Origin: Gemmatimonadaceae bacterium
GTDB lineage: Bacteria > Gemmatimonadota > Gemmatimonadetes > Gemmatimonadales > Gemmatimonadaceae
DNA: 36,423 nucleotides
Assembly: GCA_036273715.1 (NCBI GenBank)
Contig: DASUHB010000054.1
Span: forward strand, 1 to 36,423
Reading direction: 5' to 3'
Shown here: piece by piece, positions 4,729 through 33,141 of the stretch
Layout of the letters: each line of letters begins with the position of its first letter
How positions within the stretch are numbered: position 1 is the first letter of the stretch
Made by a program: the position numbers and the translations under genes
Notes under the pieces: model-generated
The model's database searches: none
Told to the model about the DNA's origin: nothing
The model's input: the letters and a program-made list of their open reading frames with translations, nothing else

Positions 4729-5844
4729 CTAAATGTGAAATAGCCGCTGTGCGTTGCCACGCCCAATTTTTTCACGGTCCGAATCGCTGATCGCGGCGTG
4801 ATCAAACCAGTCTGCCGCGATGGCCGTGTCTTCGAATGGGAAATCCACCGAGTAGAGGACGCGGTCGGCGCCGACTTCGGCCACGACTTCGATCAGCGTC
4901 GGCGTCCTAAAATTGCCGCTCGTCGTGATGTAAAAGTTCTCTCGCAAATAGTGACCAATGGGACGCTTGGCGCTCGGCTTGGCTCCCAATGTTCGCGATA
5001 CGCGGTTATCGATACGCCAGATGTTGCAGGGGAGCCCTTCTCCCAGGTGACCGAGAATAATCTTGAGCCTCGGATAGTCGTCGAACAATCCGCTGCCCAT
5101 GAGGCGGAGGGCATGGACCGAAGTCTCCGCCGCGAATCCCCATACTGAGCTGATTAACCAACGATGGCCTTCGTAAGCCGGTTCGCCGGCGGATGCCGAT
5201 CGCGGGTGCAGATAAAATGGAACATCAAGCTCCTGCACCGTGGCCCAGAAATCACGGTACTGCGGCAGGTCGTAGAACACGGTGGATTCCGCCGTGTCGA
5301 TCTGCGAGTATCCGTTGACGAGCGCCCCACAGAATCCCAGTTCTTTGATGCAGCGCGTTAGCTCCTGAGCCGCAACCTGCGGATCCTGCAGCGGTAGCGC
5401 AGCAAATCCCTTGAAACGTTTCGGATTCTTGGCGATCTGCTCGGCGAGATGGTCGTTCGCGCGCCGCGCCACGCGAATCGCCTCGGGAATGCTCGGAATT
5501 GCCTGGATGCCGTCCCCGACTAGCGAAAGAATGCAAACGTCCAAACCGCCTCGGTCCATCTCGGCGATTCGCGCACTTCCAATATCGGCCAACCGCCTTT
5601 GAAATTCGGCGCTACCCAGCGCCCCATAGCTCGCGGCTAGAGTCTCCGGGACGACAAAATGCTCTTCCAACGCAATCTTGCCGGACGAGACCGAGTCGGA
5701 CGTTGCGTCATTTGCACTCGTTAGGCGGGCCTCGGTTCTCTCGGCACTGACAAATGACAATACGCCGCACGATGCCCAGATTCCGGCGGCGCGCTGGAGC
5801 AGCCGACGTCGTGTAATCACGCTGTTGCCGTCGAGGGACCTCAT
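4729..5844 (-). CDS. Amidohydrolase, gamma-resorcylate decarboxylase-like, with Tat-like signal
   Basis: The 371-residue product belongs to the metal-dependent amidohydrolase_2 family. It closely resembles gamma-resorcylate (2,6-dihydroxybenzoate) decarboxylases, which remove CO2 from hydroxybenzoates. The expected metal and active-site residues are visible: Glu60 and His62 (GKIALEEHF), His213 (YLHPR), His266 and Glu269 (ILGHLGEG) and Asp334 (YSVDFPFE). The domain begins near residue 55. It is preceded by an N-terminus with TRRRLLQRAAG and a hydrophobic stretch, which looks like a Tat export signal and is unusual for this normally cytoplasmic enzyme. I chose the ATG at 5844 because it gives a compact signal; ATGs at 5946 and 6006 would add 34 or 54 residues. 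The gene looks less GC-rich than its neighbours. It is divergent from padR and convergent with the molybdoenzyme genes. Confidence 0.87.
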   Translation of the reverse strand: MRSLDGNSVITRRRLLQRAAGIWASCGVLSFVSAERTEARLTSANDATSDSVSSGKIALEEHFVVPETLAASYGALGSAEFQRRLADIGSARIAEMDRGGLDVCILSLVGDGIQAIPSIPEAIRVARRANDHLAEQIAKNPKRFKGFAALPLQDPQVAAQELTRCIKELGFCGALVNGYSQIDTAESTVFYDLPQYRDFWATVQELDVPFYLHPRSASAGEPAYEGHRWLISSVWGFAAETSVHALRLMGSGLFDDYPRLKIILGHLGEGLPCNIWRIDNRVSRTLGAKPSAKRPIGHYLRENFYITTSGNFRTPTLIEVVAEVGADRVLYSVDFPFEDTAIAADWFDHAAISDSDREKIGRGNAQRLFHI

Positions 5845-31606: not shown

Positions 31607-31627
31607 TGTGCCCGTAGGACAGTGGCG

Positions 31628-32488
31628 ATGACGATGACCCTCTGGTTGCACCCGGCTGGCACCTTCAGCTGGTCGTCGTTCAGCGTGCACCCGAGCACCG
31701 TCATCGGCATCGCTGCGTTAGGCGCGCTGTACGCCTGGCGCGCCCGCGCCGGCGAAGTGGATCCCGTTCCGCAGCCGGGCGCCGCGCCGCCCAGTGCGCC
31801 CGACCCAAGACGCCGGCCAACGCATGGCCAGGTGCTGGCGTTCGTCCTCGGCCTGGCGACGTTGTTCTTATCGCTCAACGGCCCGCTGCACGATCTGAGC
31901 GACGACTATCTGTTCAGCGCCCACATGGTGCAGCATCTCGTGCTCACCATGATCGTCACGCCGCTGTTGATCGCGGGAACACCGGGATGGATGCTGCGGC
32001 CGGCGCTGCGCAGCCGAAGCGTCGCGGCAGTCGCGCGACGCATCACGACGGGACCGGCAGCGTTCGGGATCTTCAACGTCACGATCGTCGTGTGGCATCT
32101 GCCGCCGCTCTACAACTATGCTCTCGTGCACCATCCGGTGCACATCGTGATGCACCTCTGTTTCCTCGTCGCATCCACCATCATGTGGTGGCCGGTGATG
32201 AGCACGATGCCCGAGCTGCCGGCGCTCTCGTATCCGAAGCAGATGCTGTACTTGTTCCTGATGTCGCTGCCGATGACCGCCGTGGCGATGATCATCACGT
32301 ACGCGAGCACGACGCTCTTCCCATCCTACGCCGCCGCACCTCGCGTGTGGGCGCTGTCCCCGCTCGAGGATCAGCGCCTGGGCGGCCTGATCATGTGGAT
32401 CCCCGGCGGCTTCGTCTTCATTGGCGTCCTGTCCGTCGCATTTTTCAGATGGGTCCGCGAGTTCGAGCGCCAGGAAGCTACAGTCTGA
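31628..32488 (+). CDS. ctaG: CtaG-type caa3 oxidase assembly protein
   Basis: The 286-residue protein has about seven membrane helices and belongs to the Caa3_CtaG family, needed for making active caa3 oxidase in Bacillus, probably through copper delivery. Marks are FSAHMVQHLVLTMIVTPLLIAGTPGW, FNVTIVVWHLPPLYNYALVHHPVHIVMHLCFL and DQRLGGLIMWIPGG, with His and Met residues in the helices suited to copper binding. Start choice among GTG 31622, ATG 31628 and ATG 31634 is open; AGGA about nine bases before 31628 favours that one. It ends the oxidase operon, and a very long hairpin begins 6 bases after its stop. Confidence 0.92.
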   Translation: MTMTLWLHPAGTFSWSSFSVHPSTVIGIAALGALYAWRARAGEVDPVPQPGAAPPSAPDPRRRPTHGQVLAFVLGLATLFLSLNGPLHDLSDDYLFSAHMVQHLVLTMIVTPLLIAGTPGWMLRPALRSRSVAAVARRITTGPAAFGIFNVTIVVWHLPPLYNYALVHHPVHIVMHLCFLVASTIMWWPVMSTMPELPALSYPKQMLYLFLMSLPMTAVAMIITYASTTLFPSYAAAPRVWALSPLEDQRLGGLIMWIPGGFVFIGVLSVAFFRWVREFERQEATV

Positions 32489-32494
32489 CAAACC

Positions 32495-32612
32495 GCGGAC
32501 CAAGCGACAGGCGGACAGCGCGGACACACCGGACAAACTGCGGACCGCTACAGGCGTAGCGGTCCGCGGTTTGTCCGTGTGTCCGCGATTGTCCGCCTGT
32601 CGCCTTGTCCGC
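32495..32612. repeat. Very long hairpin built of CGGAC repeats, between convergent genes
   Basis: A near-perfect inverted repeat pairs 32504-32551 with 32556-32603 around a four-base loop (AGGC), with only a few mismatches and single-base gaps. Weaker pairing extends it to about 32495 and 32612. Each arm is built from several copies of (G)CGGAC about 9-16 bases apart (32495, 32511, 32520, 32531, 32540), so the element looks repetitive as well as palindromic. It fills the gap between ctaG and a convergent membrane-protein gene. It could act as a two-way terminator, an RNA stabiliser, or be a small mobile (MITE-like) or REP-like element. Confidence 0.85.
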
Positions 32613-32643
32613 CTTTAGTCTCGCCTTTAGTCCGCCTTTAGTC
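32610..32643. repeat. Three tandem 11-bp repeats beside the long hairpin
   Basis: CGCCTTTAGTC occurs three times (32610-32620, 32622-32632, 32633-32643), one extra base separating the first two. The array directly joins the 3' arm of the hairpin and ends seven bases before the stop of the leftward gene. The CTTTAG core supplies the only short T-runs near the hairpin. Confidence 0.85.
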
Positions 32644-32649
32644 CGCCGG

Positions 32650-33141
32650 TCATTCACCTTCCATGGCGTGCGCGAATTCCTGACGCAACGCCGGATGCGT
32701 GCGGTACAGGTACGTTCCCATGAGGAGCGCCGCCAACACGTTCCCGGCCGCGATCTGATACCACGCGAGCGCGTGCATTCGCGTCTCGGCCATCGTCGCC
32801 GCCACACCATAGAAGCCCAGCTCGAAGATGATGAAGAGCAACGTGAACGTGACCAGGACCGACGGCTCGACTTCGGCGCGATGCACCACCCGCGATGCGA
32901 TAAGGCCAGAGAAGACAAACGCCGCGTAATGGAAGACCGTGTATATCGCGACGTGCAGTACCGCGCTGTCAGTCCCGGTGTTACCGAAGACGCTGAACAG
33001 CGCGGCGCCTAACAGCTCCGGCGTGTAGAACACGCCGTGCCCGCTCACGACGTCCACGACCAGAAACCAGACCGCCACACCCGTCGCCGCAATCACCCCC
33101 GCCACCACTCCTTCGCGAACCGTATTGTGCGCTGCCGGCAT
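32650..33141 (-). CDS. Four-helix membrane protein of unknown function
   Basis: The 163-residue protein, read from the ATG at 33141 with GGAGG about five bases upstream, has four hydrophobic helices. These are VVAGVIAATGVAVWFLVVDVV, AVLHVAIYTVFHYAAFVFSGLI, VLVTFTLLFIIFELGFYG and WYQIAAGNVLAALLMGTYLY. Histidines occur inside or beside helices (HVAIYTVFHY, HAL). I do not recognise the family. It is convergent with the oxidase operon and divergent from the lipoprotein gene; an oxidase-related role is only suggested by position. The reading frame stays open upstream to 33435, but that part overlaps the next gene's start and looks non-coding. Confidence 0.75.
   Translation of the reverse strand: MPAAHNTVREGVVAGVIAATGVAVWFLVVDVVSGHGVFYTPELLGAALFSVFGNTGTDSAVLHVAIYTVFHYAAFVFSGLIASRVVHRAEVEPSVLVTFTLLFIIFELGFYGVAATMAETRMHALAWYQIAAGNVLAALLMGTYLYRTHPALRQEFAHAMEGE

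Follow-up and report, generated by a model that had tools for sequence, protein, structure and literature searches.

A dispersed, stop-codon-anchored CGGACA repeat family behind ctaG and other genes of a Gemmatimonadaceae bacterium

The long hairpin behind ctaG in a Gemmatimonadaceae genome is one copy of a dispersed, non-coding (G)CGGACA repeat family. Dispersal, anchoring at stop codons, fixed polarity, a distribution nearly limited to two species, and rapid turnover are established for this family. With moderate confidence, we regard it as a lineage-specific REP/BIME-like repeat that has grown by slippage and template switching, and that provides a structured mRNA 3' end at both of the convergent genes between which it lies at ctaG. 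The window analysed here is contig C54 of this genome in its full length of 36,423 nucleotides; close relatives are Gemmatimonadaceae bacterium CRAIB_MAG39 and CRAIB_MAG34. A sister species (G004) has DNA about 93% identical over the aligned parts. Both species are represented by draft assemblies, that of the host genome (G000) being 98.7% complete in 81 contigs.

Results

Table 1. Features of the ctaG junction (positions in the window).
Feature	Position	Strand	Properties
ctaG (Caa3_CtaG), last gene of the caa3-type oxidase operon	31622-32488	+	PF09678, E 1.2e-57
Full spacer separating the convergent stops	32489-32649	.	161 bp, nearly all repeat
Long hairpin	32495-32612	.	Fold z = -13.2; stem of complementary arms
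Hairpin left arm	32495-32551		GCGGAC-type units
Hairpin loop	32552-32555		AGGC
Hairpin right arm	32556-32612		GTCCGC-type units
11-bp tandem array	32607-32647	-	Period 11, 3.6 copies, 93% match
Convergent gene, no Pfam match	32650-33141	-	Start uncertain, longer ORF to 33435

In the first-pass annotation, a hairpin of (G)CGGAC repeats had been placed behind the oxidase operon, with 48-nt arms around a four-base loop and an 11-bp array following it (for coordinates, see Table 1). The hairpin was found at this place, with both arms composed of (G)CGGAC / GTCCG(C) units and a loop of four bases, while the arms measure ~57 nt each, with a few mismatches and single-base bulges, and the array, present as described, overlaps the hairpin at its 3' foot instead of standing after it. 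Weaker pairing continues beyond the arms, outward to 32483/32624. The inner 22-nt arms are 95% complementary, and over 67 aligned columns, with the outer part included, the arms are ~87% alike. Folding of positions 32480-32660 yielded an MFE of -117.6 kcal/mol versus a shuffle mean of -60.9 (sd 4.3), with 0 of 200 shuffles as stable. As tight palindromes proved scarce in the host genome in a simple palindrome search, the tight stem at ctaG is an extreme case.

The left arm begins ~7 nt after the ctaG stop codon, and the ctaG mRNA would run into it. The 11-bp array has the unit GTCCGCCTTTA, with one interval of 12 bp. Read on the minus strand as GGCGGAC TAAAGGCGGAC TAAAGGCG(AGAC) TAAAGGCGGAC, it stands directly behind the TGA of the minus-strand gene, the junction being TGA-CC-GGCGGAC-TAAAGGCGGAC-TAAAGGCG... 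(listed as TGACCGGCGGACTAAAGGCGGACTAAAGG); the array is stop-anchored on this strand and belongs to the convergent gene.

A terminator scan of both strands returned nothing at 32495-32612. Bidirectional intrinsic terminators between convergent genes share the position and the strong stem, whereas the ctaG hairpin is followed by no U-tract on either strand, is far longer and is a member of a dispersed family. A known Rfam RNA family was ruled out, with no match above the gathering score; the search with the element gave sub-threshold matches only, mostly to generic miRNA-type hairpin models.

A genome search for further copies, which had been suggested in the first pass, uncovered the dispersed family, with 18 BLAST matches to the element on many contigs. 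In 1.18 Mb from 14 contigs, 37 clusters (at least five CGGAC/GTCCG boxes each) were counted versus 0-4 in order-4 Markov controls; this sample makes up 27% of the genome and is enriched for contigs with matches, so that its densities do not extend genome-wide. Using gene calls from a small home-made caller, little coding overlap was seen in 27 of the 37 clusters, while non-coding DNA accounts for 12.6%. On reading the copies, units were found to be of the (TAA)AGGCGGACA type and array ends to differ from locus to locus. Most loci with CGGAC-then-GTCCG (RF) order fold strongly. Some arrays stand without a partner array, others overlap predicted genes, and a few are found between divergent genes. 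Integron attC sites, considered for the GTTAGGC/GCCTAAC heptamers near some arrays, were ruled out, as this heptamer is evenly spread through genes genome-wide.

The spacing of same-orientation boxes in intergenic DNA peaks at 9, 10 and 11 bp (38, 56 and 40), and is flat in coding DNA. Such spacing, about one helical turn, would suit a protein-binding array as proposed in the first pass, with sites bound at the DNA level by a nucleoid, topoisomerase or regulatory protein and the palindrome being secondary. We consider this improbable, given that the spacing varies by 2 bp and that neither the stop-related strand polarity nor the long mirrored arms would be needed for it.

GGCGGAC starts 0-3 nt after the stop codon at 19 of 528 gene ends (odds ratio 8.8, p 3e-11), with a density of 9.0/kb in this interval versus 1.1/kb at 4-20 nt after the stop; in coding DNA, it amounts to 0.31/kb in sense and 0.47/kb in antisense. 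TAA is the stop codon in 11 of the 19 anchored ends versus 87 of the 528 overall (p 3e-5), and TAAAGGCGGAC is common among internal units, with 39 copies in the host genome, 27 in the sister species, 4 in one further member of the genus and 0 in the other three. Given this over-use of TAA and the frequency of TAAAGGCGGAC, the repeat unit seems to include the stop codon (TAA/TGA + GGCGGACA).

Arrays start 0-12 nt behind many stop codons, and ribosome stalling has been reported for REPs of E. coli situated no more than 15 nt from a stop (PMC12306157). By analogy, the stem could stall terminating ribosomes and lower the expression of the upstream gene. At several loci, however, the partner arm lies 100-300 nt away, where a stem may form slowly, and we hold translation-coupled control of this kind to be unlikely, albeit a serious alternative.

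Wherever opposite arrays of at least three boxes each stood within about 400 bp of each other, the CGGAC array preceded the GTCCG array (21 of 21 pairs in the two species; 21 RF, 0 FR); one of these pairs, at C64 5608-5803, is a copy of a second palindrome family described below. A looser two-box criterion gave 22 RF versus 2 FR in the spacers of the host genome. An arm resembles the reverse complement of its own-locus partner more closely than those of partners elsewhere (mean rank 6.0 of 21, p 4e-5).

In relatives, a homologous convergent gene stands beside ctaG in 34 of 80 loci. The spacer measures 33-400 bp in 13 of these and folds with z <= -3 in 8 of the 13, all from unrelated sequences: the OF_bin.40 junction has arms of GGGGTCA heptamers (z -14.2), the RYN_356 junction has GGCGTGCTCYGAC units (z -7.9), and the remaining folded junctions include single-copy stems. 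In CRAIB_MAG39, the ctaG protein of which is 88% identical, a spacer of 38 bp is occupied by a short GC hairpin of unrelated sequence. In about 13 relatives, the two stops overlap or adjoin each other, so a junction hairpin is dispensable. Judged by these sequences, a hairpin at the ctaG junction is common, not necessary, and lineage-dependent in sequence. The first pass had also proposed this comparison, naming a single copy conserved with ctaG and acting only as a terminator as the outcome that would speak against its reading; the element proved to be dispersed, and this outcome did not arise.

Different short tandem units were further noted in other Gemmatimonadota at or near the ctaG 3' junction (L111, L115, L126, L135 and L136; GGTGGTT, GGCGTGCTCYGAC, GGGATCGGC, GGGGTCA and TAGCACC), in some of them with mirrored arms; spacer repeats that differ by lineage may thus be a general feature of the phylum. 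In RYN_358, a distant relative, the post-ctaG spacer (L124 3813-4110) contains repeats with a similar box, CCGCGGACGA / TCGTCCGCGG. Spacers in the sample loci L259-L266 of G010 abound in heptamer repeats, CATCAGG and CAGCCCC.

Among 20 relatives, BLAST matches to the element were obtained in G004 only. A two-box pattern, searched over 395 Gemmatimonadota, matched 20 times in the host genome and 26 times in G004; the others gave none or one to three matches, except for one genome with an 8-bp microsatellite. This microsatellite (AGGCGGAC, G228:C47:18633-18705, at least seven overlapping matches) is in a genome from another family of the order. A phage source was considered and not favoured; by raw count, the pattern occurred in 88 viral contigs, scattered and mostly as single matches.

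At sites with matched flanks, an array was present in both sisters in 6 of the 6 compared, mostly altered in copy number and arm sequence, with L363 nearly unchanged. Mirrored additions were observed in both arms: at C48/C513, one G004 arm has gained GGGCCGGACCAAGCCG and the other arm CGGCTTGGTCCGGCCC to match, and there are further cases elsewhere. Stems compared base by base between G000 and G004 showed no excess of compensated changes, with 8 changed pairs kept and 12 broken; pairs were thus not clearly better kept than by chance, and this comparison of the sister species does not establish selection for pairing. The mirrored additions, together with the lack of preferential keeping of pairs, favour arm-onto-arm copying over slow compensation.

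Fast turnover between the sister species and the lack of per-pair covariation would also fit neutral or selfish DNA, as would abundance in only two of the species searched and the presence of arrays in divergent spacers. The arrays would then be by-products of slippage and template switching or derive from an undetected mobiliser, tolerated behind stop codons for the little harm done there, and the hairpin would have no function. We see some chance of this, albeit a minor one: the precise 0-3-nt anchoring, the TAA preference and the fixed polarity are not expected from tolerance alone, and hairpins of unrelated sequence recur at the ctaG junction in relatives.

Over-represented 10-mers led to a second family, a discrete imperfect palindrome consisting of ...CTACGCTCATGAAGACGCGGACAAAGCAGGACACAACGGACAAAGCA... 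and an inverted partner around an A/T-rich middle, with conserved arms (TCATGAAGACGCGGACAAAGCA...), the palindrome sequence TCATGAAGACGCGGACA, and inner ends 112-116 bp apart in most copies. Half-sites of its end sequence were counted 55 times in the host genome and 13 times in G004; four further genomes from the genus have none. As CGGACA boxes are common to both, the array family and the second family are probably related. Copies of the latter were noted at L377, L389, L402 and on contig C64 at 2073, 59282 and 141998, with a core of about 115 bp and, in several copies, arms extending outward into GATCGTGAGGCAGG...; within the genus, they are limited to G000 and G004.

Intergenic palindromic repeats of bacteria are often explained by transposases. 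The half-site distribution of the second family is as expected of recent spread, for which a classical mobile element might be responsible, a MITE or REP whose CGGACA boxes are recognised by a mobilising transposase, be it a RAYT or another. This we regard as unlikely: the ctaG-type arrays have no fixed ends, and no target-site duplications were recognised by eye, in a reading made without a clean empty site for comparison. The single Y1 transposase (Y1_Tnp) match in the genome is interrupted by a TGA stop codon and is not flanked by a CGGAC array in the stretch read around it, and a RAYT-driven REP was rejected on this basis.

As a separate observation, CGTTAGGC/GCCTAACG are vastly over-represented in G000 (1869+1885 copies, the reversed pattern having 153+128). 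They occur on both strands, for the most part within genes, with examples in the window at 5720, 15329 and 24381. Their counts are also high in G001, G002, G004, G005, G010 and G024, but neither in G003 nor in the greater part of the family. The pair looks like a DNA-uptake-sequence or HIP1-type motif.

Discussion

With REP/BIME elements, the repeat family has in common that it is short, intergenic, palindromic, dispersed, mosaic and species-specific, and the arrays do occur in the many dispersed intergenic palindromic copies by which such elements are defined. A further likeness to the stop-anchored arrays is that some of the REPs in E. coli are found no farther than 15 nt from a stop (PMC12306157). 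REP/BIME elements differ in sequence, and each is built on one short palindrome bearing a GT(A/G)G head, versus 9-11 bp units in open-ended arrays. RAYT association and the GT(A/G)G head are characteristic of REPs (PMC2817692); on reading the copies, no such head was found beside a short palindrome in the arrays, and no intact RAYT gene flanked by the repeat was found in the host genome at its completeness of 98.7% in 81 contigs. We infer a non-autonomous REP/BIME-like repeat of new sequence.

The fixed terminal inverted repeats of MITEs are lacking in the arrays, the ends of which vary by locus, and are present in part in the second family. The latter, discrete, imperfectly palindromic and scattered through intergenic DNA, resembles ERIC/MITE-like long palindromes, whereas the ctaG-junction element is an array-hairpin mosaic without fixed ends. 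Of the first-pass proposal of a MITE or REP-like sequence, the dispersed family is borne out, while the MITE is not, and an intact REP-type transposase is missing. The role proposed there in the stability of the oxidase mRNA is possible, but would not be oxidase-specific, with the same arrays standing behind many genes.

TAACTGA heptamer repeats in Beggiatoaceae and others are likewise short, intergenic, stop-containing direct repeats of patchy distribution (PMC4679880). They differ from the CGGAC units in unit length and sequence, and in the Beggiatoa genome they are found mostly just upstream of start codons, with inverted copies being rare (one reported) (PMC4679880). Template switching is a documented source of RNA hairpins (PMC8794818), and template-switch hairpins resemble the family in their mirrored two-arm additions and locus-specific arm sequence (PMC8794818); the difference is that here the process would act repeatedly on a repeat family behind stop codons.

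For the preferred reading, a REP/BIME-like repeat forming structured mRNA 3' ends, we propose that a unit sitting directly behind a stop codon would be lengthened into an array by replication slippage, and that fold-back template switching would make a reverse-complement partner array downstream of the CGGAC array. Such formation of the partner would lead to the constant CGGAC-then-GTCCG order and to near-perfect long stems, and the fixed polarity would be explained by the damage to the gene that an inverted copy on its other side would cause. The stem is probably a structured 3'-end RNA hairpin of the neighbouring genes. At the ctaG junction, it would form the 3' end structure of both convergent mRNAs, blocking 3'-5' decay and/or read-through between these two genes, where relatives keep unrelated hairpins instead. 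The lack of a U-tract makes intrinsic termination less likely than protection or factor-dependent ending. Counting against the RNA role are this missing U-tract, the base pairs not clearly better kept than by chance, the arrays that have no partner, overlap predicted genes or stand between divergent genes, and the dispensability of a hairpin at the junction.

A further-reaching idea, on which we place only tentative weight and which we think unlikely to hold, is that the repeat carries its own stop (TAA-AGGCGGACA), spreads to gene 3' ends, replaces the native stop codon and builds fold-back tails there. If true, one bacterial lineage would have re-equipped many of its genes with a home-made, fast-evolving 3' UTR structure.

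In the open-access papers searched, we found no relevant work on intergenic repeats of Gemmatimonadetes or on mRNA 3' ends set by such stems in this phylum. The family described here is young, abundant in only two sister species, stop-anchored and of fixed polarity, and its two arms have changed jointly over a few per cent of DNA divergence. It would thereby offer a natural system for watching how long RNA stems arise through slippage and template switching, and allows asking whether such stems set the 3' ends of mRNAs in Gemmatimonadota.
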